Source of the DNA: Thauera sp.
Lineage (GTDB): Bacteria; Pseudomonadota; Gammaproteobacteria; Burkholderiales; Rhodocyclaceae
Length of the DNA: 64,000 nt
Assembly: GCA_024235615.1 (NCBI GenBank)
Contig: JACKMB010000001.1
Span: 1,178,001 to 1,242,000, forward strand
Direction: 5' to 3'
How positions within the stretch are numbered: position 1 is the first letter of the stretch; each line of letters opens with the position of its first letter. The notes under the pieces are model-generated. The model ran no database searches. It saw only the letters and a list, made by a program, of their open reading frames with translations, and had not been told where the DNA came from. The translations under genes and the position numbers were made by a program. This document shows, one piece after another, positions 2 to 15,697 of the stretch.

Positions 2-3000
2 GTCGGTGCAGCTGCCGACGTGGCACTCGACGATCGGGCAAGCGTGGTCGAGCGCGCGAATGCCCAGGCCGCCGCACCGAAGAACGAGAACCTGCGCGCC
101 TTTGAAGGTGCGATCGAAAACCGCCGCGCCGCACTGGGCACCGACGACCCGGGTTTGCTGGATGCGCTGGGTGTGGTCGGCGGCGCGGTGCTCGCCCAGC
201 CGAAGGGCGCCGGTTACGCGGTGCTCGAGCAGGCGCCGAACGCCGTGGCCGCCCTCGCCCCAGCTTGGGCAGGTGCGAAGCTGGGCGCCACCGCAGGCGC
301 AGCTATTCCGCTGCCGGGCGCAGCACCCGCGCTCGGTGTGGTCGGCGGCCTGGCTGGCCTGTTCTTGGGTAACACCGCGCTCGAGGTCGGGCACAAGGCT
401 ATGGAAAAGGCGACCGACGGCCAGTTCACCGCCGCCGAGCGCGAGACCGCATTCGTCGAAGGCGGAACGAAGGCTGCCACGATCACCGGCATCGATGCCG
501 CGACGCTGGGCCTGTCGAAATGGATCATGGGTGCGACCTCTCGCGCCGTCGAGCGCGCCACCACGCGCGCCCTGACCGATGCCGGCGTCGATGTCGGCAA
601 CGAGGTGGCCGTGATGGCCGCCCGCCGATCGCCTGAGATGGTGAAGGCGGTGCGACAGGCACAAGAGGCAGCCATCGACACCACCGCCACGTTCGGCCGC
701 AAGGCTGCCCGCGCTGGCGCAGCGCTCGGCCTCGAGACGATCGGTGAAGGCCTCGGCGAATACCTCGGCGAGCTCGCTGCAACGGGGAAGGCCGACGCGA
801 TCGACGCCGTGCTCGAGAGCGTGCTCAGCCTCGGCCAGTCGGGCGCAGAGGTCGCTTGGGGCGCATCGCGCAACGCCGCATCGATGGCCGCCGCTCGCCT
901 CAACCCGAACGCAGGGCCGAACAGCCGCGCCGCCATCGTCGCGTTGAACCAGCAGGCGCAGGGCAATTTGCCGCCGACCGAAGGCCCCGCCGCGGGAACG
1001 ATGCAGCAGGCTGCTGCAGCCGGGCAAATGGGCGGCGATTTGAATAACCAAGTCCCGGCCGACTGGGCGCAGCAGATCGACGCTGCACTCGGCACCGCGC
1101 CCGCACAGCAAGAAGTGCAACCGATGGTGTCGCCCTGGCTCGATTACGAGCAACAGGCACCGGCGACGGACTGGTCGGGCTTCGTGCCCGATGCAGTCCC
1201 GGCCGGGTTCGTGCCGGACGCGAACCAGAACACCATCGAGACCTCCCCCGGCACCGCGCCGACCGCCACCACCAGCCCCGCGGCACCGAACGGCCAGCAG
1301 GATCAGCAGCAGACGCCGCGCCTCGTGCCGATGAAGGACGAGGCCGCCGCCGCACGTCGCGCTGAAGTGGTCGCAAAGCGAACCGGCACGCCCCAGGTCG
1401 TGATCAGCCACCCGACCGTGGCCGGGCGCTTTGCTGTGGTGCCGGCCGACTCGCCGCTGGCCATCTCAGCCGCGCCGACTGCCCAGGCCGAAGGGCTCGA
1501 CACTGCCGGCCTCTTCCAGACCCAGGCACCGATCCCGCTGAAGAACGCGCGCAACCTCGCCGGCATGATGTCGATGGCCGGTGGTGTCGAGCATGCCGTC
1601 GTGCCCGCCCCGACGGGTGACGGCTTCGGCGTGGCGCCCGTCGATCAACTTTCGCCCGCCCAGCTCCAGCAGTGGGCGGGCTTTCAACCCGGAGCGCGGC
1701 GCGGTGCGGCCCGCCGAGTTCCAGGCCCGTCGGCCGCACCGACGGCAACGGCAGCGCCGGCCACTTCGGCGAGCACGACCAGCAGCACGGCCACCCCGCA
1801 AGGGACGCCGGACGCTGGCCCGGAGCTCGCCCAGGTGACCGGCGCCACGCCGGCAGCACCCGCAGTCCCGGAAGGCGCGCAGGGCTTCAACACCGAGGCC
1901 CAGCGCGCTGCACCGGCTCTCCCCCAGATCAACAACAGCACCTTCACCAGCGCCATCGGCAACGCACAGGCGACGATCCGCCGCGAACGTTGGACCATCG
2001 ACGGCGGCCGACGCTTCGAGGGGCGTATTCGCGCCGAGCTCGAGCGGGCAGGCGTGCCGGCGAACGCGGCCCAGGCAGTGATTGACCTGGCCAAGCAGCA
2101 GACCCCGACCGACGCATTCGTGAGCGGTGACGCACTGGCACAGGCGGCGCGTACGCTGGGTGTGGTCAGCTCCGCATCGACGACCACGACGCCGGACATT
2201 TCGCCGGACGCCGAGCAGATCGAAGCCGCGCCGCAGCAGGCACCCCAGGCAGACACGCAGCAGGACAAACCGACCACCACCCGCGCCATCGTTCCCGGCC
2301 AGACCGCCAAGGGGCGCGACGTGCTCCTCGCGCAAGTCGAGCAGCTTAAGCAGCGCACCGCGCCCGCCGACCTCGTCGCGGACTACAATGAACTCAAGGC
2401 GCGCATCGCTGACGCCCGCCGCCGCGCGAGCCTGAAGGCCACGAAGCGCACCGAGGCGGAGACGCTCACGAGCTGGGCGGACAATCAGGATCGCGAGCTC
2501 GAGCGGTTGCGCAACGAGATCGGGTTCGTAGAGCTGAAGGCCGGCACCGCGCGCTATCGGGTGCTCAACACGCCCGAGAACCTCGAGGCCTTCGCGCAGA
2601 AGCTGAAGAAGGCACCCGTCGGTCGCTGGACGGTTACCGTTCAACCGGAAGAGATCTATGACAACCTCGAAACCCGACCCGGCACAACCGAAAAGCAGCG
2701 CGAGACCGGCCGTTCCGCGGTGCGTGAGCTGGCCCGACGGGTCACGGCTCATCTACAGCGCCGAGGGAATCACCAAGATCGAGCCGCAATCGAGGTACTC
2801 GGCTCCCGCCTCTACGATGGATTCGCCTTCGACGGCGGCGTCGACCTCGTCGGCCAGCGAGTAGCCAGCGCGGAAGACCTCGCCACCCTGGCGCAGGTCT
2901 TCAGAGATCCGAGGTACGAAACTTTCAGGGTTTTCTACACCGACGCGCAGGGCGTTGTCGTCGGTGAGGGCGCTTATTCGAGCCGCCTGCCCGCGGCTGT

Positions 3001-6000
3001 CAATCTGCCGAACGACTTCGACGCCCACATCCGCCGCGATGTGGGGCGCTTCGGGGCGACCGGCTTCTGGGTGCTACACAACCACCCATCAGGCCGCGCT
3101 GCCCCGTCACCGGCCGACGTCAATCTGACGAAGTGGATCGCCAGCAGCGTGAACGGCTTCCGCGGTCACGTCGTGATCGATCACAACGAGTTCGCTACGA
3201 TCGGCGGACAGGGCGCGGTGCAGGTCATCCAGGCGCCGCAGCTCAACGGCACCGACTTCGGCAGCAAGCCCGAGGTCGATCATCACATGCTCGGCAGCAC
3301 GATCAACGGCGAGCAGGACGTCGTGCAGGCCGCCAAAGCGCTGCAGGTGAAGAGCGACCACGCGGCCCTGATCTTCTTGCGCCGCGACCAGAAAGTGCAG
3401 CTCGTGATGGATGTGCCGATGGCACTACTCCAGGACACCAGCCGCGCCGCCCTTGGCAAGCTGCGTGCCGTGGTGCGGGCGTTCGCGCGGGAGTCAGGCG
3501 CCGGCGGCTGGCGCTTCCTCGTGCTGCCCGATGGCGTCAGCCCTGAGCCGCTGAAGCGGCTGGTGCTCGACAACATCTTCACCGACATTGTGTCGGCGGA
3601 TGGCACGACCGCCGGCAATTTCGGCGCGGTCACCACTGGCGACTTTCTCGATTACAACATCCCAATCCGTCGCGTGAAGGAGGCCGACGGGCCCAGCCGC
3701 GCCCAGACCGAAACGCCGGCGTTCAAGCGCTGGTTCGGCAACAGCCAAGCCATCGACGACAACGGCCAGCCGCTGGTGATGTACCACGGCACGAACAAAG
3801 ACATCACCGCGTTCAAAGCCGGCCGCGGTGGCGGGGCAATCTGGTTCGCCACCGACCCCACCCTCGCGAACATGTTCGTCGCCGGCGGCCGCCAGCGCAT
3901 GGCCGAGGGCAACCGCAAAGGCTCGGCGGTCTATCCGGTGTATCTCTCGGTGCAGCAGCCGCTCGACTTGGGCGACGCATCGCCCCAGGACAACAGCCCC
4001 TATTCGTACGTGCTGAAGGCCGCCGGCCTGCCCGCGAATTACGACGCGGTCGCAGAAATCGCCCGCCGCAACCTTGAAAGCGGGTATGCAGGCGTAAGCC
4101 CGTCGGCGAAGGATCCGGTCGCGACCCTGACCGAGCAGTACATGGCGCGCTACAACCGGCTATCCGACATCCTCGATAACCCCGATCTGGTCGAGGTGCT
4201 GCAGGAAGCCGGCTTCGATGGGATCAAGATGCAGGAACAGGGCGTGACCACCTTCGCGGTGTTCGCGCCCGAGCAGATCAAGAGCGCCACCGGCAACGCC
4301 GGCACCTTCGATCCGACCGATCCGTCGATCGTGCGCGAGGACGACGGCGACCCCTACGCCGCCGGCCTCGAAATTCGCCCGGGCAGCACCGCCGCCCAGC
4401 TCGACACCGGCCGCGCCGCCCTCGCCGACGTGCAGCGCCGCATTCTCAGCTTGCGCGGTCAGAAGATCGGCGCGGCGGTGCTGGGCTCGCGTCTGGCCGC
4501 CGACCTCGCCACCACGGGCGGCGCGCAACTGATCGGTCAGGAGGTTCGTGACGCGAGCGACCTGGCGGTGTTGGGGCAGATCTTCAGAGATCCCCGCTTC
4601 GAGACCTGGCGCATCTTCTTTGCGAAGGACGGCAAGGTCGTCGGCGAGCACGCATACAGCAGCCGCCTGCCCTCCTCGGTGCTCCTGCCGCGCGGGATCG
4701 AGCAGTGGGTCAAGACCCAATCGGAGAAGTACGGCGCGGACGCCGTATTTACCCTGCATAACCACCCAAACGGCACGGCGATGCCCTCAGCGGGTGACAT
4801 GCACATGGCGGCCCGCCTGCGTCGCGAGGTGCCCGGCTGGAAGGGCGAGATCATCATCGACACGCGGGAATTCGCGGTTCTCACCGGCGATGGTGTGCCA
4901 CCGCGCGAGGGCTTCGAGGATCTCGGCCCGCGCGACCTGGCCGAATACGGCGCGACGGTAACCTCTGCCCCGGGCCTGGCATCGGTCGATTTCAACAGCG
5001 CGCCCGAGCTCGAGCACCGCCTCCTCGGCTTGCCGATTGGCGACGCGGCGAACATCGCCAAGCTGGGCAAGGCTCTGCAAGTTCCGGGCGGGCATGCCGC
5101 GATGATCGTGACGAGTGAAGGCCGAGTGCAGGCCCTGCTTGACGTACCTGTCGCCCCGCTGCTCGACACGAAAACGAAGCTGGGCCGCGCGAAGATCATG
5201 GCCATGGTTCGCCGGATCGCCCGCGCAACCGGCGGCGAGTCGCGTTTCCTCGTGACGCCGAAGGGTGTGAAGTTGGATCCATGGTTGATCAGGTTCGGCG
5301 TCTTTCAAGACGTCGTGTCGGAGAACGGCACATCGATGCTCGCCACCGTGCGCAAGCGTGCTGGAAACCCTGACCTCGTGCCGCTGGACCAGATCGCGCG
5401 CAACGCCGGCCGCAGCGCCCGCCTGCTGTACGAGCCCAGCGGCCCCGGCTACGACGCCGCAGAGCCCGGCACGCGCCGCAGCCGCGCCGCCGAGCCGCAG
5501 CAGACGGAGGCGGTCGAGGACTTCACGCCTGAGCGGGCGACCGTCGGCGAGTGGATCGCGCACCAGCTCCGGCAGAACCGCGGCTGGGCGATGGGTGCGC
5601 TGACGCGTGACCAGCTCGCCGACATCTACGGCAACAGCATGCCGGCCGTGGAGCAGTTCGACCGCACCGTGCAGGCGATGGACCTCGTGCGCAACCGGAT
5701 GATGGAACAGGCCGACGCGCTGGTCGAGCGCTGGCGCAAGCTGCCCAGCAAGGAGGCCGACCGCCTCGCCGACGTGATGCACGCGGCCACCCTAGCGCAG
5801 TTCGACCCGGCAGAAATGAACGCGACCACGCCCGAGGAGCAGCAGATCGCCTCCGACTTCGACGCGCTGTCGATGCCCGCGCAGGAGGTGTACCGGGACG
5901 TTCGCGACCAGTACCGTGCGACGTTGATCGCGATCCGCGACAGCCTCGCCGGCCGCGCCGAACGCACGGGCAGCACCGGACGGGCCATCGCAGACGAGAT

Positions 6001-8137
6001 CCGGCTCAAGTTCGATCGCTACCTCAGCGAAGGCCCGTATTTCAGCCTCGCGCGATTCGGCGAGTTCATTTTGATCGCGGATCGGGACGGCGAACGCATC
6101 GTCGAGGCCTTCGAATCGAGCCTGCAGCGCGAGAAACGCGCCCGCGGACTGCGCGCCCAGGGCTTCACGGTGAAGCTGACCGCCAAGCAGCAGTATTCTG
6201 CAACCAAGGACGGGGCGGCCGGCTCCTTCATCGGCGACGTACTCGAAAAGGTCGATGCGCTCGACATGGATGCCGAGCAGAAAGGCGCGCTGATGGACCA
6301 GCTCAACCAGTTGGCCATTTCCGCCTTGCCGGACGCGAGCTATCGCAAGCACTTCGCGCACCGAAAAGGCACGCCGGGCTTCTCGAACGACGCGATGCGC
6401 GCCTTCGCCTCGTCGCAAATGCACGCAGCCCACCACCTGGCGCGGATCAAGCACGCCGACGAGCTCGCGCTACTCATCGACGAAATGCGCGCGGATATTC
6501 AGGCCCAGCGCGGCGACGTCGACACCACCGAGCAGCAGCAAGTGGTGAACGAACTGACGCGCCGTCTGGACCTCATGATGAACCCGGTCACGCACCCGAT
6601 CACCGCAGCGCTCGGGCAGGTGGGCTTCGTCATGTCGCTCGGCGGATCGATCGCGGCCGGTATCACCAACCTGACGCAAACCCCGCTTGTGACCTACCCC
6701 TGGCTGGGCTCGCGATCCGGCTTTGATGCCGCCGCCGGTGCCCTGCTGAAGGCCTCGAAGGATTACTTCGGCGGCCGATGGGATAAGTGGTCCGGCTTCG
6801 TCATGGCCGATAACCCCAACCTCAAGGACGACGAGCGCGCCGCCCTGCGCCACCTCGAGGAAACCGGCTTGATCAACCTGACCCAGGCATCGGACCTGGC
6901 CGGCACGGCGAACACCGACTCGACGGTGAGCAAGCGCGCATTCGCGATCAACCGGGCGATGAAGATCGTCGGCTGGACCTTCCACACGCCGGAAGTCTTC
7001 AACCGGCAGGTTTCCGCCTTGGCCGCGTATCGCCTGGCGCGCGACGCCGGACAGACCCACGACACCGCCATCGAATCGGCACGGCAAGCGCTGATCAGGA
7101 CGCATTTCGACTACAGCGCCAGCAACCGCGCCCGCTTCATGTCAGGGAATGTCACGCGGGTAATCACGATGTTCAAGCAGTACAGCCAGAACGTGACCTA
7201 CCTGATGTGGCGCAACGCCTACCAAGCCCTCAAAGGCGAATCGGCCGATGTGCGCCGCGAGGCCCGCCGCATGCTGCTGGGTGTGGCGACGATGCACTTC
7301 GCCGCGGCCGGCACGATGGGCTTGCCGCTCGGGATCTTCGGCGTTACGCCCCTGCTGGCGCTACTCAGCATGGGCATGGGCGACGGGGACGATCCGTGGG
7401 ATTGGGAAACCGAGTACCGCAACATGCTCGCCGACACCTTCGGCAAGGAGGGCGGGGAAGCCATCGCAAAGGGGCCGATCCGCATGCTGCTGAACGTGGA
7501 TCTGGCGTCGCGCGTCGGACTCGGTGACCTCTGGATTCGCCCGCCGCAGAAGGAAGCCGAGGGGCGTGACCTCGTTGAGGCATGGCTGATCAGCCTGCTC
7601 GGCCCCGTCGCCGGTTACGCCGGGCAGATGGGCACCGCTGCGAAGGCCTTCGAAGAGGGCAAGTTCGCCCGGGGCGTTGAGGCGATGCTGCCCAAGTTCC
7701 TGGCGTCGCCGCTCAAGGCGATCCGGTATGAAGCGGAGGGCGTGCGCAGCTGGAAGGGTGCCGACCTTGGCATCACGCTCACCGAGGCGGACATCGCGGG
7801 CACGGCGCTGGGCTTCAATCCGGCACGCGTCGCCGAGATGTACGAGGGTCGCAGCGCGGTGAAGGGGCGCGAAGCACGGCTCCAGGCGCGGCGCGAGGAA
7901 CTCACGAACATGTGGTGGGAGTCGCAGCAGGCCGGCGACCGCACAGGTGTCGCCGAGGCGTTCGACCAGATCCGCAAGTTCAACCAGCGCAACCCGCCCT
8001 TCGCTATCACGATGAAAACCTTGCGCCAGTCGGCGATGGCTCGGCGACGTGCCCAGCTCCAGACCGCACAGGGCTACTTCCTGAACCGCCGCCGCGACGA
8101 GCTCCGCGAGTTCAGCCGCTTCGCCAACATCGACTGA
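2..8137 (+). CDS. Large phage polyvalent protein (partial, N-terminus outside window)
   Basis: The frame is open to the window edge; the GTG at 20 has no ribosome binding site, so the true start lies upstream. Residues below are counted from 20. A glycine/alanine-rich hydrophobic stretch lies at about 55-125. A JAMM/RadC-like domain follows, with HNHP at 1020-1023 and the full HxH-x7-S-x2-D pattern (S1030, D1033) after an upstream GEGAYSS. An ADP-ribosyltransferase-like segment starts at MYHGT (1254-1258). A second complete JAMM domain has H1580, H1582, S1590 and D1593. The last 500 or so residues resemble the PLxRFG/LPD38 module of phage polyvalent proteins, with hydrophobic helices. Such proteins are thought to be packaged in the virion and ejected into the host. 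The two JAMM regions share long similarity and look like a duplication. Family is fairly sure; exact substrates are unknown. Confidence 0.85.
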   Translation, partial: VGAAADVALDDRASVVERANAQAAAPKNENLRAFEGAIENRRAALGTDDPGLLDALGVVGGAVLAQPKGAGYAVLEQAPNAVAALAPAWAGAKLGATAGAAIPLPGAAPALGVVGGLAGLFLGNTALEVGHKAMEKATDGQFTAAERETAFVEGGTKAATITGIDAATLGLSKWIMGATSRAVERATTRALTDAGVDVGNEVAVMAARRSPEMVKAVRQAQEAAIDTTATFGRKAARAGAALGLETIGEGLGEYLGELAATGKADAIDAVLESVLSLGQSGAEVAWGASRNAASMAAARLNPNAGPNSRAAIVALNQQAQGNLPPTEGPAAGTMQQAAAAGQMGGDLNNQVPADWAQQIDAALGTAPAQQEVQPMVSPWLDYEQQAPATDWSGFVPDAVPAGFVPDANQNTIETSPGTAPTATTSPAAPNGQQDQQQTPRLVPMKDEAAAARRAEVVAKRTGTPQVVISHPTVAGRFAVVPADSPLAISAAPTAQAEGLDTAGLFQTQAPIPLKNARNLAGMMSMAGGVEHAVVPAPTGDGFGVAPVDQLSPAQLQQWAGFQPGARRGAARRVPGPSAAPTATAAPATSASTTSSTATPQGTPDAGPELAQVTGATPAAPAVPEGAQGFNTEAQRAAPALPQINNSTFTSAIGNAQATIRRERWTIDGGRRFEGRIRAELERAGVPANAAQAVIDLAKQQTPTDAFVSGDALAQAARTLGVVSSASTTTTPDISPDAEQIEAAPQQAPQADTQQDKPTTTRAIVPGQTAKGRDVLLAQVEQLKQRTAPADLVADYNELKARIADARRRASLKATKRTEAETLTSWADNQDRELERLRNEIGFVELKAGTARYRVLNTPENLEAFAQKLKKAPVGRWTVTVQPEEIYDNLETRPGTTEKQRETGRSAVRELARRVTAHLQRRGNHQDRAAIEVLGSRLYDGFAFDGGVDLVGQRVASAEDLATLAQVFRDPRYETFRVFYTDAQGVVVGEGAYSSRLPAAVNLPNDFDAHIRRDVGRFGATGFWVLHNHPSGRAAPSPADVNLTKWIASSVNGFRGHVVIDHNEFATIGGQGAVQVIQAPQLNGTDFGSKPEVDHHMLGSTINGEQDVVQAAKALQVKSDHAALIFLRRDQKVQLVMDVPMALLQDTSRAALGKLRAVVRAFARESGAGGWRFLVLPDGVSPEPLKRLVLDNIFTDIVSADGTTAGNFGAVTTGDFLDYNIPIRRVKEADGPSRAQTETPAFKRWFGNSQAIDDNGQPLVMYHGTNKDITAFKAGRGGGAIWFATDPTLANMFVAGGRQRMAEGNRKGSAVYPVYLSVQQPLDLGDASPQDNSPYSYVLKAAGLPANYDAVAEIARRNLESGYAGVSPSAKDPVATLTEQYMARYNRLSDILDNPDLVEVLQEAGFDGIKMQEQGVTTFAVFAPEQIKSATGNAGTFDPTDPSIVREDDGDPYAAGLEIRPGSTAAQLDTGRAALADVQRRILSLRGQKIGAAVLGSRLAADLATTGGAQLIGQEVRDASDLAVLGQIFRDPRFETWRIFFAKDGKVVGEHAYSSRLPSSVLLPRGIEQWVKTQSEKYGADAVFTLHNHPNGTAMPSAGDMHMAARLRREVPGWKGEIIIDTREFAVLTGDGVPPREGFEDLGPRDLAEYGATVTSAPGLASVDFNSAPELEHRLLGLPIGDAANIAKLGKALQVPGGHAAMIVTSEGRVQALLDVPVAPLLDTKTKLGRAKIMAMVRRIARATGGESRFLVTPKGVKLDPWLIRFGVFQDVVSENGTSMLATVRKRAGNPDLVPLDQIARNAGRSARLLYEPSGPGYDAAEPGTRRSRAAEPQQTEAVEDFTPERATVGEWIAHQLRQNRGWAMGALTRDQLADIYGNSMPAVEQFDRTVQAMDLVRNRMMEQADALVERWRKLPSKEADRLADVMHAATLAQFDPAEMNATTPEEQQIASDFDALSMPAQEVYRDVRDQYRATLIAIRDSLAGRAERTGSTGRAIADEIRLKFDRYLSEGPYFSLARFGEFILIADRDGERIVEAFESSLQREKRARGLRAQGFTVKLTAKQQYSATKDGAAGSFIGDVLEKVDALDMDAEQKGALMDQLNQLAISALPDASYRKHFAHRKGTPGFSNDAMRAFASSQMHAAHHLARIKHADELALLIDEMRADIQAQRGDVDTTEQQQVVNELTRRLDLMMNPVTHPITAALGQVGFVMSLGGSIAAGITNLTQTPLVTYPWLGSRSGFDAAAGALLKASKDYFGGRWDKWSGFVMADNPNLKDDERAALRHLEETGLINLTQASDLAGTANTDSTVSKRAFAINRAMKIVGWTFHTPEVFNRQVSALAAYRLARDAGQTHDTAIESARQALIRTHFDYSASNRARFMSGNVTRVITMFKQYSQNVTYLMWRNAYQALKGESADVRREARRMLLGVATMHFAAAGTMGLPLGIFGVTPLLALLSMGMGDGDDPWDWETEYRNMLADTFGKEGGEAIAKGPIRMLLNVDLASRVGLGDLWIRPPQKEAEGRDLVEAWLISLLGPVAGYAGQMGTAAKAFEEGKFARGVEAMLPKFLASPLKAIRYEAEGVRSWKGADLGITLTEADIAGTALGFNPARVAEMYEGRSAVKGREARLQARREELTNMWWESQQAGDRTGVAEAFDQIRKFNQRNPPFAITMKTLRQSAMARRRAQLQTAQGYFLNRRRDELREFSRFANID

Positions 8138-9298: not shown

Positions 9299-10114
9299 AT
9301 GCACACACCCTGCTTTGCTGCCCAGGTAGAGCGCGCGCTCGGCATCGCCGCCGATGAACTCGCCGCCGCTGGCAACCCGGGTGCTGCGTTTGCCCAAGCG
9401 ATCGTGCGCGCGATTCCCCAGGCGCAACACTTCACGCTGCCAGCGGGCGGCCGACTCTTCGATGATGGCCTGCGCGGGCTCGACACCGACCTGCACGCGA
9501 TCCGCCTGCCCTACCCGGTCATCACGCTTTCCTTCGCTGACGGCGCGCGGCGGACACTCGTTGTCGCCCAGGAATTGCACGAGGCAGGACAGAACACCAT
9601 CGTGGTGCGAGTCGCGGTGGACACGGGCGGCGGTCAGGGGTGGGGCTTTTTCCCGTGCACCGCCCAGCCGGAGCAGCGCCACGACGACGGCTCGGTCGCG
9701 TGGGTGTGCTTCGACAGCGTCGGCGGCCGACTGGACCGCACGCCGATGCACGAGGCGGTCATGGCTGCCGGGCGCAGCGTCCTCGAGCTGGTCGAAGCGC
9801 TCTCATGCAACAACGTTGCGGCAGAGGTCGTCGAGCGCGTGGATCCGGCGGTGAATGCGCGCCGCCGCCGACAGGGGAAACTTGCGCTCTACGAAACGCG
9901 CGTTCTGGTCGTGAGGGTGGGCGACGTGGCGCACGCGATCGGTGCGCCAGTCGGAGATCGGAACGGACCGCGCGAACACCTGCGCCGCGGTCATGTGCGT
10001 CGCCTGCCGGACGGTCGGAAGACTTGGGTGCAGGCCTGCGTTGTCGGCTCTCGGGCGCTGGGCGTGGTGCGGAAAAGCGCCTACGTGATCGAGGTTGAGC
10101 GCGCGCTCGCATAG
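9299..10114 (+). CDS. Phage hypothetical protein
   Basis: A 271-residue protein. The ATG at 9299 is chosen because GAGGAG lies directly before it; an upstream in-frame extension to 9092 would overlap the previous gene by 200 bases. The product is soluble-looking, with no signal peptide, membrane helix or known catalytic motif. A basic stretch (NARRRRQGK, about 188-196) and an RRGHVRRLPDGR segment near 240 could contact nucleic acid. It is the last gene of the rightward late series. Confidence 0.65.
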   Translation: MHTPCFAAQVERALGIAADELAAAGNPGAAFAQAIVRAIPQAQHFTLPAGGRLFDDGLRGLDTDLHAIRLPYPVITLSFADGARRTLVVAQELHEAGQNTIVVRVAVDTGGGQGWGFFPCTAQPEQRHDDGSVAWVCFDSVGGRLDRTPMHEAVMAAGRSVLELVEALSCNNVAAEVVERVDPAVNARRRRQGKLALYETRVLVVRVGDVAHAIGAPVGDRNGPREHLRRGHVRRLPDGRKTWVQACVVGSRALGVVRKSAYVIEVERALA

Positions 10115-10468
10115 GGTTTCAGCACCCTGCACGCGACCTCGAAGGGCACCCGCTGTTGATCGAACACCTCGGCCGCCTTGTGCAACGGCATCCGCCCCGC
10201 CGCCCCCTAGCCGGAGATCCGGGAGATCATGGCGCGCATCTCGTGGCGCTGACTCTGATCGATCATCGACGGGACACGCAGATGTGGATATGCGATTAGC
10301 GTAACTGGAGACCGTCACGTAATCCACAGGAGGGGCAACGCGTCGGCGATCGGGTTGCCCAGACTGGGGTAATGTTCTGTGAAGAGGTGGTCCGCTGTGT
10401 GGACTGGTCGCCGGTACAGGTAATCTGATTTACCAGCCGCTGCAGCGTGTCGCCGATGCGCTCGGACG
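10115..10468. other. Intergenic region without convincing gene
   Basis: About 350 bases between the last late gene and a small leftward ORF. Several short frames are open on the minus strand (one begins MIDQSQRHEMRAM, stopping after 19 codons near 10200), but none has length plus a ribosome site. It may be a decayed gene. No terminator-grade hairpin with a T-run was seen. Confidence 0.4.
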
Positions 10469-10630
10469 TCACGGGATCGTCAAGGGGTTTGCTGGTGGAT
10501 TACTGGGGGCACATGGGGTGCTGCGGGGCGCGGTGCTGAGTTCGGCGCCATCGCCCAGTAAGTTGTGCACGCGGGCCGGCGGCTGGCCGTAGCGGTTTTT
10601 GGTGTGCTTGACGAGCAGGGTACGGTGCAT
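10469..10630 (-). CDS. Small phage protein (53 aa), unknown
   Basis: A 53-codon frame beginning MHRTLLVKHTKNRYG. It is supported by a strong AGGAGG Shine-Dalgarno sequence three bases before the ATG and by a promoter-like pair upstream on the same strand (TTGAAT at 10706-10701 and TATGTT at 10684-10679, 16-base spacer). The -35 element overlaps an operator-like repeat. The N-terminus is basic and the C-terminus Pro-rich. It is divergent from the methyltransferase gene. Function unknown; lysogeny-associated expression is an inference from the operator. Confidence 0.55.
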   Translation of the reverse strand: MHRTLLVKHTKNRYGQPPARVHNLLGDGAELSTAPRSTPCAPSNPPANPLTIP

Positions 10631-10693
10631 AGCTTCCTCCTTCGCTCTGCCGCCCGGGGTGGGCGGTGCGTCGGAGACAACATATCCGCATAA

Positions 10694-10720
10694 GGGTACA
10701 ATTCAAACCCGTAAACGGGT
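10694..10720. promoter_or_regulatory. Operator-like triple half-site upstream of the methyltransferase
   Basis: The pattern GGGT-N9-ACCC-N6-GGGT occurs here: a 17-base imperfect inverted repeat (10694-10710) overlapping a 14-base inverted repeat with six-base perfect arms (ACCCGT/ACGGGT, 10707-10720). The same pattern with identical spacing is found between the CI-like and Cro-like genes at 14892-14918. It overlaps the -35 of the leftward small ORF and lies about 75 bases before the methyltransferase start. Rightward, TAGAAT at 10765 is a possible -10 without a clear -35. Confidence 0.65.
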
Positions 10721-10791
10721 ACTCTTGACGCCAGACCATCAGCCCATCGGCACTGTTGTTTGGGTAGAATTCGCGCCGGAAAAGGAGCGTT

Positions 10792-11793
10792 ATGCCTAAA
10801 GCAGTGTCTTTGTTCTCGGGGTGCGGCGGATCGGACGCGGGCGTGATCGCGGCCGGGTTCGATGTCGTCATGGCGAATGACATAATCGCCTACGCGCGCG
10901 ACGCCTATCTGGCCAACCTGCCCAAGACCGACTACGTGCTCGGCGATGTGGCCAAGATCGAGGACAGCGCATTCCCGAGCGCCGAGCTTCTAGTGGGATG
11001 CTATCCGTGCCAGGGCTTTAGCCAGGGTGGCGCCCGCGAGGCCGACCGCCGCATCAATACACTGTATCTGGAATTCGCCCGCGCTTTGCGGGCCATCCAG
11101 CCCAAAGCCTTTATTGCCGAGAACGTCTCGGGCTTGCGCCGCAGCACGTACAAGCATCTGCTCGACGACCAGATCGTGCAGTTCAGTTCGGCCGGCGAGC
11201 ACGGCTATGACGTGGTGTGGCAAGAGCTCAAAGCCCACGAATACGGCGTGCCACAAGAGCGCAAACGGCTGGTCATCGTCGGCATTCGGCGGGATCTGGG
11301 CGTGCGCTATGGCTTCCCGGCGCCCACCCATGGGCCGAGCGCGGACCAGCCCTACCTGACGATCGGGAAGGCGCTCGAAGGCTTGCCCGAATGGCCGGAA
11401 GGGGAATACTGCGACGACCCCTTCCACTGGTATTACCTTTCACGCAACCGCCGGCGCGGCGCGGACGAGATCAGCAAGACGATCGTCAGCCACATGCGCC
11501 ACATGCCCTTGCATCCGGTGAGCCCCTCGCTCAAGCGCATCCACACCGACAAGTGGGAGTTCGAGGAGGACAAGCCCGCCCGCCGCTTTTCCTACCGCGA
11601 GGCTGCGCGGCTGCAGGGCTTCACCGGGAAATACCTCAAGCACGGCGGCGATTTTGTCTTTCCAGAGGCGTGCACCCATGCATCCGGGCAGGAAGGCAAC
11701 CTGTTGCGCTATCGGTACAAGGTCATCGGCAATGCGGTGCCGCCCCCGCTTTTCGAGGCGGTGGCAAAGGCGTTGCCGGATGTCTGGGACTGA
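10792..11793 (+). CDS. DNA (cytosine-5-)-methyltransferase
   Basis: A 333-residue C5-cytosine methyltransferase, which transfers methyl from S-adenosylmethionine to a cytosine in a short DNA target. Visible motifs in order are SAM-binding motif I (SLFSGCGGSDAG, 6-17), motif IV with the catalytic Cys (GCYPCQGFSQ, C73), motif VI ENV (110-112), motif VIII-like QERKR, and the C-terminal motif X IGNAVPPPLFEAVAKAL. The variable target-recognition region is short. AAGGAG stands before the ATG. It is followed at 28 bases by a Vsr nuclease gene and faces a ParB-like/nuclease operon. An operator matching the CI/Cro switch lies upstream, so repression in the lysogen is possible. Target sequence cannot be read from the protein. 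Confidence 0.95.
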   Translation: MPKAVSLFSGCGGSDAGVIAAGFDVVMANDIIAYARDAYLANLPKTDYVLGDVAKIEDSAFPSAELLVGCYPCQGFSQGGAREADRRINTLYLEFARALRAIQPKAFIAENVSGLRRSTYKHLLDDQIVQFSSAGEHGYDVVWQELKAHEYGVPQERKRLVIVGIRRDLGVRYGFPAPTHGPSADQPYLTIGKALEGLPEWPEGEYCDDPFHWYYLSRNRRRGADEISKTIVSHMRHMPLHPVSPSLKRIHTDKWEFEEDKPARRFSYREAARLQGFTGKYLKHGGDFVFPEACTHASGQEGNLLRYRYKVIGNAVPPPLFEAVAKALPDVWD

Positions 11794-11821
11794 CTGAGCG
11801 CGCGCGGAGCGGCGTGGGGTC

Positions 11822-12244
11822 ATGGCGGACCGCTTTTCCTCCGCAGCCCGCGACCGTGTGATGTCCCGCATCAAACAGCGTGACACTGCGCCGGAAATGG
11901 CGCTGTGGCGGGCGCTTTGGGCTGCGGGGCTTCGCTATCGGCTGAAGCTAAAGCAGAAGCTACCAGGCAAGCCCGATTTGATATTTGCGGCGGTCAAGGT
12001 CGCGATCTTTGTCCATGGCTGCTTCTGGCACGGGTGCCCAGAGCACGGCCGCAAGCCTAAGAGCCATGAAGCGTATTGGACGCCGAAACTCTCGAGGAAC
12101 CTGCGCAGGGATGCCGAGGTGAATGCCGCGCTCGAGGCGATGGGCTGGCAGGTTGTCCGATTCTGGGAACACCAGATCACAGCGGACCTGGCCGGCTGCA
12201 TTGCACGAGTGGCCGTGTTGGTCAGGCCATGCACAACTGCATGA
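11822..12244 (+). CDS. vsr: Very short patch repair endonuclease (Vsr)
   Basis: A 140-residue Vsr-type nuclease that nicks DNA next to T:G mismatches formed when 5-methylcytosine deaminates. The usual partner is a C5 methyltransferase, here the gene directly upstream. Key positions match the family: D52 in GKPDLIF, H65 and H70 in FVHGCFWHGC, and the WEHQI motif near the end. Length is normal (E. coli Vsr is 156 residues). The 3' end overlaps the convergent nuclease-like gene by 23 bases, so the two operons meet tail to tail. Confidence 0.93.
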   Translation: MADRFSSAARDRVMSRIKQRDTAPEMALWRALWAAGLRYRLKLKQKLPGKPDLIFAAVKVAIFVHGCFWHGCPEHGRKPKSHEAYWTPKLSRNLRRDAEVNAALEAMGWQVVRFWEHQITADLAGCIARVAVLVRPCTTA

Positions 12245-13163
12245 CGTGCTGCATGCGTGCGTTTTCAGCGAGCAGCACGGTCGCGGCCTTTTCCCGTTTG
12301 GCAAGCAGCGTCAGGCGGACCCGGTCGAAAACGATGCCTCCATGCCGCGAAATGAAAGGGAGCTTTTCATCCAGCGCATGGCGCGGGGTGAAGATCGCGC
12401 GGACAGGATCAACGTTGGCGATTTCGCTCACCCATTCATTCAGAATCTTAATGTTGAGGTCCTGCAGCTTCGCGTCCGTGTGCCAGTTCTTACCGCAGGC
12501 GCACTGCCCCAACAGGTAAAGCTGCCCGGCGCGGCCATCGACGCTCTTCTTCCAAGCGACGATGTCGAGGCCCTGTTCCTTTGCCCGTTGAGGGGATGGG
12601 TCTTCCGGGTTGCCTTCCTTTGGGCCCCATTTCCATTCGCCGCACTGATCGCCAGTGGCCTTGCGCAATTCTTCGATCGCGCCTTTAAGCGTGGTTGCAC
12701 TGCCCCGTGGGCGGGGCCAGCCAATGCGGTAGGAAGCCGCGTCGTCGCCCAGGTAGGCTTCGGCGATCAGGCACGACAGCGCCTCGAACGTGCGGGGGAG
12801 AAGCCGCTTTCGACCGGTCGAGTAGTCCTCCGCCAGACTCACTAGCAGAAGAAGTTCGTACAGTTGAGGATCTGCGGGGACGTGAATCAAACGGCTTCCC
12901 ACGTGGCGAAAGGGGTAAGCGTCGCCCAAGAGCCGGGCACGGCGTTCGATCTCCGTCGCAGCTTCGGCCTCTGCCTCCTCAAGGGCCTTGTCGCGCTCCA
13001 ATGCATTGTTGCCGCGTGGATAGTCATCATCGGCGCCAGAGAGCTTCTCATCGATGATGCCGGCGCTTATAGGGGCCTCACCCATCCGCAGCGCAGCAAG
13101 CTCGGCCTGATCTGCATTTTCGGTCGGGTCGGTGCGCCGTGGCGCGCGTTTGCGCCTAGCCAT
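12222..13163 (-). CDS. Putative nuclease / restriction-type protein
   Basis: A 313-residue protein. The ATG at 13163 is preferred because it overlaps the upstream stop (ATGGCTAG) and has GAGGAGG nine bases before it; an ATG at 13184 would add seven residues. The N-terminus is very basic. The central segment GLDIVAW (Asp near 201) followed by GQLYLLGQCACGKNW (Gln near 221) has the look of a PD-(D/E)XK fold core, with an Asp strand then a Gln strand, and Cys residues nearby. It is translationally coupled to the ParB-like gene and convergent with dcm-vsr, which suggests it is the restriction or effector half of the cassette. The function is inferred; I do not recognise a named family. Confidence 0.6.
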   Translation of the reverse strand: MARRKRAPRRTDPTENADQAELAALRMGEAPISAGIIDEKLSGADDDYPRGNNALERDKALEEAEAEAATEIERRARLLGDAYPFRHVGSRLIHVPADPQLYELLLLVSLAEDYSTGRKRLLPRTFEALSCLIAEAYLGDDAASYRIGWPRPRGSATTLKGAIEELRKATGDQCGEWKWGPKEGNPEDPSPQRAKEQGLDIVAWKKSVDGRAGQLYLLGQCACGKNWHTDAKLQDLNIKILNEWVSEIANVDPVRAIFTPRHALDEKLPFISRHGGIVFDRVRLTLLAKREKAATVLLAENARMQHVMQLCMA

Positions 13164-14346
13164 TCGGCATCGCCTCCTCGCCATCGTCCAACGCTTTCAT
13201 GACCGCGGCTTGCAGGGCGCTTGCCATGTTCCGGATCTTCAGCACTTGCGACAGCAATTCCGCCGCTTGCGCAGAGCTTGGCGGAGACTCCGCAACCAGC
13301 TTTACCAGATCCCCAAGGTTCTTTTCAGCTTCATCGAAGCCTTCCGAAATGCGCTCGTTTGCCGGCTGCAGTTCGGCCTCGATTTCGTCGACCGTGTAAC
13401 CCTTGCGAACCAGCTTGAAGCGGGTATCGTCCGCAATTGCGGCCGCGTAGTCTCCGATCTGCCGGGAGTCGTCGATTGCGGGGTGGCCATCTGGCACGTC
13501 ACGGTTGCCGAGCAGGCGCAGAAACACAACTCTGGCGTCTTCGAGGTGACTTTCCGGAATAGGGTCGGGGCGGGGAATGTCCGAGATTCCAAGCCGCTTG
13601 CGCACTGCCGGATAGCCCAAGAGGGTGTAGACCCACGAGAAGGCAAAATCGGCATTGCTGCCCCGTCCCTTTCTGTAGCTGGCCTCGGGGTTGAACAGTC
13701 CGCATTTGATCAACTGATCGACCACGTTGTAGCCATGCAGAAGCCGGGCGATCGTCTTGTGCTGGTCGCCTGTCATCCGCGAAATGTCGTCGAGGGAGAG
13801 ATCTCCGTCGCGTACGACCCGCGCGATCCATGCGGCTTTCGCATAGGAATCCCACGGCATCGATGCGGCCAGGTGCCGCACGCCCAGATAGGAGATCAGC
13901 TCTTTGGGCGACTCACCTTCATTGAACCAGATGACTGGAATCTGGGTGATCGGCGGTTGTTGGTGGCTCTCCTGCAGTTCCTGGTAGCTCTGCGTCCGCT
14001 TGGCCTGATTCTTTGCACGCGGCTCGCCGGCAAGGACGAGGCATGCGGCCAGGCGGCGGTTGCCCTCTACGACGCGGTACTTGCTGGATTTCTTCTGCTT
14101 GATGGCAATTACCGGTTCGGCCGGAAAGTAGCCGTTGACCGCCAGCGAGCTGATCACGTCCTCGATGCCGTAGTCGCCGACGATGCTGTCGAGGATTTCA
14201 ATCTGGCTCGTCTTGGTTCCATCCGCATTGCCAAAGCGTGGGTTCTCGGGATCGAGCTCGAGTTTGTCGAGCTCGATCATGTCGATCGGCTTTTCGTCCT
14301 TAGCAAAGATTGATTGCTGGCCCGCCGGGGCTGCCTTCTTGGCCAT
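13156..14346 (-). CDS. ParB/sulfiredoxin-like N-terminal domain protein
   Basis: A 396-residue protein. ATG 14346 is chosen over the GTG at 14388 because AGGA lies before it. The N-terminal third resembles the ParB/Srx fold, with the motif VEGNRR at 93-98, where ParB proteins carry the GERR CTP-binding motif. A helix-rich middle (DISRMTGDQHKTIARLLHG) looks like the ParB HTH. No ParA gene is next to it, so plasmid-type partition is unlikely. Its coupling to the nuclease-like gene and opposition to dcm-vsr suggest a role in restriction, defence or DNA recognition. Expression probably starts in the gap at 14347-14464. Confidence 0.7.
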   Translation of the reverse strand: MAKKAAPAGQQSIFAKDEKPIDMIELDKLELDPENPRFGNADGTKTSQIEILDSIVGDYGIEDVISSLAVNGYFPAEPVIAIKQKKSSKYRVVEGNRRLAACLVLAGEPRAKNQAKRTQSYQELQESHQQPPITQIPVIWFNEGESPKELISYLGVRHLAASMPWDSYAKAAWIARVVRDGDLSLDDISRMTGDQHKTIARLLHGYNVVDQLIKCGLFNPEASYRKGRGSNADFAFSWVYTLLGYPAVRKRLGISDIPRPDPIPESHLEDARVVFLRLLGNRDVPDGHPAIDDSRQIGDYAAAIADDTRFKLVRKGYTVDEIEAELQPANERISEGFDEAEKNLGDLVKLVAESPPSSAQAAELLSQVLKIRNMASALQAAVMKALDDGEEAMPNG

Positions 14347-14464
14347 TTGCGTTCCTGGTCTTGACGTGCCATTGGGCAAATCGCCCACTCTGAATTATGG
14401 CAATGGTCTATGTTTTTTTGACTTTCCGGGAATAATATCTGCCGGCGCCTAGTGTCAAAGTCAA

Positions 14465-14857
14465 TTACAGCGCACTTTCCTGACGCCGCGCCGGGTAGTC
14501 GCGGGCGGCATCCTTTGCTTTCTCGAGCACGGCCACGACGCCGAAGTCGTCGGTCTGAGTGAGCAAGGCATTGATCTGCTCGATGCGCTCCTCGCGTTGG
14601 GTCTTGGGGCGAAGTTCGAGCACCTCTCCCGCGCTCGCCGGGCCCGGGGCCACCAGTAGCTCGGCGGGCTGGCGACCGAATGCCGCCGCGATGGCCGTGA
14701 GTTTTTCCACGGTGATGTTTCCATCGCCGTTCTTCGCCCGTTGTACCGTCCCAAACCCCACACCCGACTTCACTGCGATCTTCTTGAGCGTATCCAGCGC
14801 CGGGGTCGCCGCCATCCAGGCGGTGAGGTTCGCTGCGATGACTTGTGCAGTGTCCAT
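14465..14857 (-). CDS. CI-like phage repressor (XRE-family HTH)
   Basis: A 130-residue protein with an XRE-type HTH at about 20-65 (LKKIAVKSGVGFGTVQRAKN, then the ITVEKLTAIAAAFG helix). A short, polar C-terminal region of 65 residues follows; it is too short for a LexA/CI peptidase domain, so RecA-driven self-cleavage is unlikely. It is divergent from a small HTH gene with palindromic operators between them, the standard layout of a lysogeny switch. It is the best candidate for binding the GGGT/ACCC operators here and in front of the methyltransferase. Confidence 0.85.
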   Translation of the reverse strand: MDTAQVIAANLTAWMAATPALDTLKKIAVKSGVGFGTVQRAKNGDGNITVEKLTAIAAAFGRQPAELLVAPGPASAGEVLELRPKTQREERIEQINALLTQTDDFGVVAVLEKAKDAARDYPARRQESAL

Positions 14858-14891
14858 AAATGGATTGTCCGCAAACTTTCAATCCATGTGC

Positions 14892-14925
14892 GGGTATTGA
14901 GAATACCCATATCTGGGTCTAGCAT
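14892..14925 (+). promoter_or_regulatory. Lysogeny switch operator and rightward promoter
   Basis: A perfect 17-base inverted repeat, GGGTATT/AATACCC around GAG (14892-14908), overlaps a 14-base one ending in TGGGT (14918). The rightward promoter is TTGAGA (14897-14902), a 17-base spacer and TAGCAT (14920-14925), so the operator covers the -35 and spacer. The expected transcription start falls at or one to two bases before the ATG at 14934, implying a leaderless or nearly leaderless mRNA. Confidence 0.75.
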
Positions 14926-14933
14926 CGATCCCC

Positions 14934-15194
14934 ATGAACACCTTGCCTTCTCTCTACGGCTACGTGATGGCTTGGCTGCGCTCGCGTGCGATACCTCAAC
15001 GTGAGGTGGCGCGCGGCTCGGAGGTTCCGTTGTCGACCGTCACCAAGATCGCCCAAGACGTAATCGCTAATCCCTCCGTGCCCACCATCCAGAAGCTCTA
15101 CGACTACTTCCGCGGTCGCGGGCTCGCAGGTGGAAAGGACGAGCGGTCCTGCGCGGGCCACTACACACCGGGGTCATCGGAGGACGCCGCGTGA
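14934..15194 (+). CDS. Cro-like HTH regulator
   Basis: An 86-residue protein with an HTH at about 19-55 (IPQREVARGSEVPLSTVTKI followed by NPSVPTIQKLYDYF). It is divergent from the CI-like gene and lies directly after a promoter covered by the operator, which fits a Cro-type early regulator. The last 20 residues are polar and probably disordered. There is no Shine-Dalgarno sequence, consistent with leaderless translation. The stop overlaps the following non-coding or short-frame stretch. Confidence 0.75.
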   Translation: MNTLPSLYGYVMAWLRSRAIPQREVARGSEVPLSTVTKIAQDVIANPSVPTIQKLYDYFRGRGLAGGKDERSCAGHYTPGSSEDAA

Positions 15195-15346
15195 CTCCTG
15201 TGCAATCGGTGAAGCGGGAACGGTTCGCAGCGAAGACTTGCGCCCCGACATGGACTGCGCCTACCTGCGGGGCACCGGTCGCCGGTCGATCGCGAACGAA
15301 CACCATGAGGCCGCGTGACGCGGCACAACCCCCGAGGATCAATCGC

Positions 15347-15697
15347 ATGTCTAGCATCGTCGTCATCCATGGCCCGCAAGGCTGCGGCAAGACCCGCAAC
15401 GCGCAGGCGCTCGCCGCGCACTCCGGCTATAGTCGCATCGTCGATGACTGGGACGGCCGGTCGAAGATCGAGGATGGCTGTCTTGTCCTGATCAACTCGA
15501 TTCCCTTCGGATTCAAGGTGCCCCCATTGCCCGTCGGCTTTCGGGGCGCGGCGCTGGTCGATGAAGCGAGCGCTCACCATGGTTTGCACAGGGTGCGCTC
15601 GAGCATGGTCGCGGGTGGCGCGACATTCGGTGAAAAGGAGTTTCAGCGAGGTGCGGTGTGCTTTCGATGGGGGGGCAGCCGGACGGTCGGAGAGTAG
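15347..15697 (+). CDS. Small P-loop ATPase-like phage protein
   Basis: A 116-residue protein. The ATG at 15347 is chosen for the GAGGAT before it; the in-frame extension to 15191 has a composition unlike coding sequence. A Walker A motif stands near the N-terminus (IVVIHGPQGCGKT), followed by DDWDG, which could serve as the Walker B region. A region around EASAHHGLHRV is unassigned. The length is about half that of a normal P-loop kinase or AAA protein, so it may be truncated or a minimal form. It is downstream of the Cro-like gene in the early rightward transcript. The role is unknown; a replication or nucleotide-related function is a guess. Confidence 0.6.
   Translation: MSSIVVIHGPQGCGKTRNAQALAAHSGYSRIVDDWDGRSKIEDGCLVLINSIPFGFKVPPLPVGFRGAALVDEASAHHGLHRVRSSMVAGGATFGEKEFQRGAVCFRWGGSRTVGE

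Follow-up and report, generated by a model that had tools for sequence, protein, structure and literature searches.

The stretch of DNA examined here (the window) comprises 64,000 nucleotides (nt) of Thauera sp. (GenBank assembly GCA_024235615.1, contig JACKMB010000001.1, positions 1,178,001 to 1,242,000). In it a cI-like repressor gene and a cro-like gene diverge from a common intergenic region, and genes for a C5-cytosine DNA methyltransferase, a Vsr-like endonuclease, a 320-aa protein and a ParB-like protein lie between the repressor gene and a small leftward open reading frame (ORF) (Table 1). The same composite DNA pattern occurs twice, once between cI and cro and once in front of the methyltransferase gene. 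The original prediction, made from this DNA before any comparison with relatives, took the second site to be one through which the CI-like or Cro-like protein controls the methyltransferase, tying DNA modification to the lysogenic state. From a comparison with related elements, we consider it very likely that the two sites are the right and left operators (OR and OL) of a lambda-like prophage immunity region.

The pattern GGGT-N9-ACCC-N6-GGGT has exactly two matches in the window when both strands are scanned, at 10694-10720 and 14892-14918, both on the plus strand. As first described, the spacing is identical at the two sites, and the bases inside and around the pattern differ between them. 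A fourth half-site, ATCC, stands 6 bp to the left of the first GGGT at both, and the extended unit, ATCC-N6-GGGT-N9-ACCC-N6-GGGT, is 37 bp long and consists of two 14-bp near-palindromes placed 23 bp apart, start to start. We attach a negligible probability to the idea that the two matches are a product of chance. A third match elsewhere in the genome speaks for it, but 100 dinucleotide-preserving shuffles of the window gave none, and the relatives described below repeat both positions, with the half-site type agreeing. The genome scan that the original prediction named as its check returned only three matches in 4.01 Mb, the third on another contig (G000:C2:702460-702496), and a reversed control pattern returned none. 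Chance was rejected on the shuffles, the genome scan and the recurrence in relatives. The 37-mer (AYCC...) is present in two of 29 genomes of the genus Thauera, with two copies in each; the second of these genomes, G009, has a CI identical to that of the window and identical sites, and by this identity it carries the same element.

Table 1. Features of the immunity region and the methyltransferase cassette, in window coordinates
Feature	Position	Strand	Remarks
OL composite operator	10684..10720		14-mers 10684-10697 (ATCCGCATAAGGGT) and 10707-10720 (ACCCGTAAACGGGT); counterpart beyond cI in 18/20 elements
OR composite operator	14882..14918		Between cI and cro; 14-mers 14882-14895 (ATCCATGTGCGGGT) and 14905-14918 (ACCCATATCTGGGT); same geometry in 20 relatives
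cI-like repressor	14465..14857	-	130 aa; HTH_3; predicted recognition helix 35-43 contains Gln39
cro-like gene	14934..15194	+	86 aa; HTH_3 E 0.00072 (below Pfam's cut-off); phrog_9425; alignment of 7
Predicted cro promoter PR	14897..14925	+	TTGAGA-N17-TAGCAT; right OR 14-mer in spacer; 9/12 consensus matches; consensus match only
Predicted leftward promoter PL	10679..10706	-	TTGAAT-N16-TATGTT; -35 in OL spacer; read from sequence
Small leftward ORF	10469..10630	-	53 aa; 62% identity over 34 aa to a 75-aa ORF at L004 9783-10010
Promoter-like GAGACA-N17-TACAAT	10674..10702	+	Overlaps left OL 14-mer, reads toward methyltransferase; weak
TAGAAT, probable -10 of the cassette's own methyltransferase promoter	10765..10770	+	27 nt before ATG, 44 bp beyond OL
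METHYLTRANSFERASE: C5-cytosine DNA methyltransferase, cassette gene	10792..11793	+	DNA_methylase; nearest in PDB M.HaeIII
Vsr-like mismatch endonuclease	11822..12244	+	vsr E 2.7e-43
320-aa cassette protein, function without assignment	12222..13184	-	phrog_14650; relatives beside methyltransferase in 29/81 loci
ParB-like 410-aa cassette protein	13156..14388	-	phrog_3694 and PD-Lambda-5_A profiles; relatives in 76/81 methyltransferase loci

Relatives of the element were gathered by using CI, Cro and the 37-mer as queries, and they yielded 20 elements with a CI of the window's family: the window itself, L081 (the record of L004), L035, L082, L089, L084, L087, L090, L091, L198/L199, L076, L077/L078, L083, L086, L088, L065 (the contig of L013), L007/L067, L186, L189 and L194. 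Left out were near-copies (L085, of L087, and one of L077/L078), L022/L042 (one phage, with no clear cI), L196 (outside the family) and L005/L012/L068, which are the same element as the window. When viral contigs were scanned for the 37-mer, 36 loci came up; cI or cro relatives were detected by tblastn with the window proteins in six (L019, L022, L035, L037, L040 and L042), and the other 30 were treated as chance. Wider genome searches with CI found matches in 6 of 200, 4 of 399, 2 of 369 and 3 of 199 genomes, the window's own included and several of them weak, and a GGCT version of the pattern, run at three mismatches over whole genomes, was too permissive. No match was returned by a plasmid search with window positions 10000-15400 or by a search of the phage collection with Cro, and searches of open-licence PMC papers for a methyltransferase under a prophage repressor, for recognition-helix co-variation and for operators of Thauera prophages listed nothing on this system.

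All 20 elements have a composite with this geometry in the interval from cI to cro, ten being of the GGGT type and ten of the GGCT type. The fit varies, L067 and L189 being off at three half-site bases and L194, L084, L087, L090 and L091 at two. As read from the sequences, most elements place the cro -35 in the composite spacer and fill the promoter spacer with the right 14-mer; their -10 ends about 7-10 nt ahead of the cro start, and the predicted -10 of the window ends 8 nt before the ATG (14920-14934). Since this closeness is shared by the window and most relatives, the cro transcript is predicted to be leaderless, and probably is. The lambda-type arrangement is thus found at OR: the operators lie between divergent repressor and cro genes and overlap the predicted cro promoter. 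At the cI start itself, ATCC stands exactly 8 nt before the ATG in 15 of the 20 elements (window 14849-14865), forming ATCC-N6-GGA over the start codon and overlapping a -10-like GACAAT that would make cI leaderless; this sequence may constitute a third operator whose GGAT half-site does not vary.

A second site was sought without regard to half-site type (GGNT halves, no more than one of 12 fixed bases wrong, spacers of 8-11, from cro-5000 to cro-300). This search found a second composite on the cI side in 18 of the 20 elements, 17 of them convincing; the match in L186, which is counted in the 18, looks spurious. Applied to unrelated loci, the same search made three matches in 655,620 bases; the stretch searched in the elements came to about 80,000 bases. 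Within an element OL and OR share their half-site type, GGGT or GGCT: G stands third in 26, A in 11, T in 2 and C in 1 of the 40 OL half-sites from the ten GGGT-type elements, and C in 23, A in 5 and G in none of the 28 from the seven GGCT-type elements with a usable OL. The distance from OL to cro is 0.98-1.38 kb in 12 of 17 elements, and it is longer in the window (4.25 kb), L199 (3.5 kb), L081 (3.1 kb), L194 (2.5 kb) and L065 (2.4 kb).

What surrounds OL also recalls lambda. In 15 of 17 elements the OL spacer ends GTCA followed by A, which on the other strand is TTGAC, the -35 of a promoter leading away from cI; the PL of the window is weaker than the relatives' version and was not picked up by a promoter scan. 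Small leftward ORFs follow the second site in the three elements read for this, and in L004 the 75-aa homologue of the window's 53-aa ORF lies leftward of the second site, so the original placing of the 10684 site before a small leftward ORF is supported by sequence. This ORF is a probable remnant of the PL operon. A second operator set of the same type is therefore found across cI at a leftward promoter, a promoter assigned by sequence and weak in the window. OL is present whatever gene adjoins it: between OL and cI, L004 has a HigB-like gene with its own promoter and three other elements have lipoprotein-like genes in the cI orientation (labels and promoter assigned by eye). Because the other elements whose neighbouring genes were examined have the same second operator and no methyltransferase there, we read the 10684 site as OL and not as a dedicated methyltransferase operator.

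Which protein reads these sites is suggested by co-variation. Residue 39 of CI, in the predicted recognition helix of an AlphaFold2 model with a mean pLDDT of 75.9, is Gln in eight of the ten GGGT-type elements and Arg in all ten GGCT-type elements, so that 18 of 20 follow the rule; its association with half-site type is the strongest among the CI columns, and none of 1000 permutations gave one as high. Among 19 Cro sequences no column showed such an association (lowest p 0.116; L186 was shortened in this test and L007 missing from it). Since half-site type follows CI residue 39 and no Cro residue, it is likely CI that recognises both sites. In two pairs of close relatives a difference in the residue goes with a difference in the operator: L082 (Gln, GGGT) against L083 (Arg, GGCT), and L087 (Gln) against L086 (Arg). 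Elements found later fit the residue rule in four of four cases, protein and operator having been seen together, so that this was not formally a blind test. That one regulator, likely CI, reads both sites seems to us well supported. The original suggestion of a common regulator stands, on the second composite in 18 of 20 elements, the agreement in type and residue 39; the reader, which it had left as either protein, appears to be CI rather than Cro.

Several observations weigh against this reading of the two sites and of their reader. The search gave no OL for L083, where the contig extends 1.4 kb upstream, or for L067, where 2.9 kb were covered; the spurious look of the L186 match counts here as well, and the OL of L091 has mixed half-sites. 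The window and L081 are the two elements that lack the TTGAC of PL. L081 also breaks the residue rule, having Arg with GGGT, together with a neighbouring Gly-to-Glu change, and so does L091, a divergent element with Leu at residue 39. CI columns 25 and 28 associate too (p 0.002 and 0.017), and relatedness must therefore contribute. Tree support is low; the CI tree has about four type changes, two of them forced by well-supported branches, and the Cro tree has five, one of them forced. Finally, in the phage of L022/L042 (two records with 100% identity across 11.8 kb), another C5 methyltransferase, with 29% identity to that of the window, takes the cI position and diverges from cro across the same composite (L022 13200-14820, L042 930-2590). 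The 28.6 kb record contains no clear cI, the best trace being a 34-aa stretch at least 17 kb away (E 1.4e-4). A methyltransferase under this operator is, given this arrangement, not unprecedented.

The same phage speaks for Cro, and not CI, as the reader of both composites, since it keeps the composite beside cro and has no clear cI in its records. Half-site type nevertheless associates with residue 39 of CI and with no column of Cro, and we regard Cro as an improbable reader, although it could still bind sites of either type if its contacts did not include the third base.

In this phage group, CI residue 39 (Gln or Arg) might pair with the third base of the half-site (G or C) as an immunity code, the residue and the OL and OR half-sites having switched together several times with the Cro recognition helix unchanged, and a promoter within OL having additionally brought the methyltransferase of the window under early-phase control. 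We offer this combined proposal as speculation that is more likely wrong than right. If it were true, immunity groups would be predictable from sequence. The rule relating residue to base is the part most worth testing, and natural repressor pairs can test it.

We turn now to the methyltransferase, whose start codon is 71 bp beyond the 10684 doublet. That proximity could mean that the doublet came with the methyltransferase cassette as a means of self-regulation, its likeness to the cI/cro site being convergence. The enzyme is 75% identical to that of Pseudomonas phage D14A and 62% identical to Mth of Wphi; going by M.HaeIII, its nearest solved relative, GGCC may be guessed as its target. Among 81 methyltransferase relatives (the best 80 of 98 viral loci and one locus from a genome search), none has in its upstream region an operator doublet or an exact ACCC-N6-GGGT or AGCC-N6-GGCT 14-mer, two of 83 regions being too short; the doublet is, moreover, found beyond cI in elements without the cassette. 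A cassette-borne origin is accordingly very hard to credit, and it was rejected on the 81 upstream regions. Nor does the enzyme carry an N-terminal helix-turn-helix (HTH) extension like that of methyltransferases which use such a domain to regulate themselves: DNA_methylase spans residues 4-328 of 333, and no HTH family matches.

These upstream regions contain something else. TATAAT occurs 25-34 nt before the ATG in 46 of 59 distinct regions, compared with a shuffle mean of 0.37, and the TAGAAT of the window falls at the corresponding place. Local alignments of the window's upstream region with those of D14A and Wphi scored no higher than shuffles, so the case for a shared -10 is its recurring position among the 59 regions. 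With a TATAAT of its own as the usual state and no doublet upstream, the cassette appears to be self-contained and to have been inserted between OL and cI. The methyltransferase is probably transcribed mainly from the cassette's own promoter, with its -10 at 10765.

The alternative, closest to the original prediction, is that the 10684 site is a methyltransferase operator and that CI or Cro controls modification directly through the GAGACA-N17-TACAAT that overlaps it. A scan of 5.2 kb (10100-15300) found only two promoter-like sites, this one and the cro promoter, both overlapping operators, and in the phage of L022/L042 the same composite separates cro from a divergent methyltransferase. Against this, chance alone would give 1.2 such sites in that interval, OL has no methyltransferase beside it in the other elements whose neighbours were examined, and the cassette has its own -10 in most relatives. 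We think this alternative possible but doubtful. That CI acts directly on the methyltransferase by way of the 10674-10702 sequence is likewise only a tentative proposal, and it would amount to repression in the lysogen. Expression from a promoter overlapping OL would come early or on induction, the reverse of modification tied to lysogeny, and that part of the original prediction is not upheld; its view of the 10684 site as an operator for the methyltransferase fares no better in the face of OL without methyltransferase, the 81 upstream regions and the frequency of the cassette's own promoter.

Taken together, we picture the immunity region as follows. In the lysogen, CI would bind OR and OL and shut off PR and PL, perhaps bridging the two. 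A cassette of methyltransferase, Vsr, 320-aa protein and ParB-like protein would have been inserted between OL and cI, lengthening the distance from OL to cro from the usual 1.0-1.4 kb to its present value and bringing the methyltransferase start close to OL, with the 53-aa ORF as what remains of the PL operon.

Of the remaining cassette genes, Vsr is found in one of the 81 methyltransferase relatives, L177 (56% identical), where it is just upstream of the methyltransferase and not downstream. The ParB-like and 320-aa genes may ride on the cI transcript, as rexAB does in lambda; by eye we saw no promoter common to nine cassettes upstream of the ParB-like gene. The pair might also act with the methyltransferase as its restriction partner. 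The 320-aa protein matched no PADLOC profile and nothing in the phage collection, and the best PADLOC match of the methyltransferase was DruM. The 320-aa and ParB-like genes (12222-14388) are part of a methyltransferase cassette that is common in P2-like prophages; since its ParB part resembles PD-Lambda-5_A, it may be a defence system. Elsewhere in the window, positions 20-8137 are a single ORF of 2705 aa with two repeated blocks that by eye resemble JAB/RadC-type domains; its product is probably a phage particle or ejection protein.

We believe these assignments are of use in several respects. They place operators in a little-studied group of temperate phages (Thauera, Zoogloea and metagenome phage contigs), the co-variation indicates which protein probably reads those operators, and the comparison separates two situations that raw sequence does not distinguish, an operator serving a cargo gene and one that a cargo gene merely landed beside.

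The cassette has close counterparts in P2-like phages. In Wphi (mth-gp96-gp98) and Pseudomonas phage D14A the order and orientation of the genes are the same, the methyltransferase being convergent with a second gene and a ParB-like gene, and the window differs by the addition of Vsr. The likeness of the 320-aa protein to Wphi gp96 is one of position only. The ParB-like protein matches PD-Lambda-5_A of PD-lambda-5 (E 2.8e-17) in its N-terminal part only.

The immunity region itself invites comparison with lambda, where the repressor gene has an operator set on either side, one towards cro and the other towards the leftward early promoter. Lambda carries rexAB as cargo between cI and OL, and its operators, three 17-bp sites per set, are inside promoters. 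In the window, too, cI stands between an OR that faces cro and an OL at a leftward promoter, with cargo between cI and OL and operators in predicted promoters; its sets have two 14-bp operators with 9-10 bp between them, whereas lambda has three 17-bp sites. The 130-aa repressor showed only HTH families, and no S24 C-terminal self-cleavage and dimerisation domain was found in it.

Its nearest solved relative is 5d4z, 'Repressor' (E 6.7e-11, profile positions 5-70); according to PMC9986798 this is the Rep protein of Salmonella phage SPC32H. The likeness to Rep is homology of the DNA-binding domain. Rep is described, in portions of PMC9638917 and PMC9986798, as having a tetramerisation domain and an antirepressor, Ant; the C-terminal helices of the window CI are modelled by AlphaFold2 with low to medium confidence (pLDDT 46-72). 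Another relative is the repressor of phiV10, an epsilon15-like phage, which is 37% identical to the window CI over 70 aa. A further pair of TTACC-N5-GGTAA sequences in phiV10 (L092 1274-1350) lies away from cI, 62 bp apart, with the spacing seen at 4391/4453. TTACC-N5-GGTAA sites stand on both sides of the phiV10 cI (L092 3662/3679 and 4391/4453), and although they differ from those of the window in half-site and spacing, and the left sites directly follow cI, their position on either side of the repressor gene suggests that the two-sided arrangement extends beyond the window's phage group.

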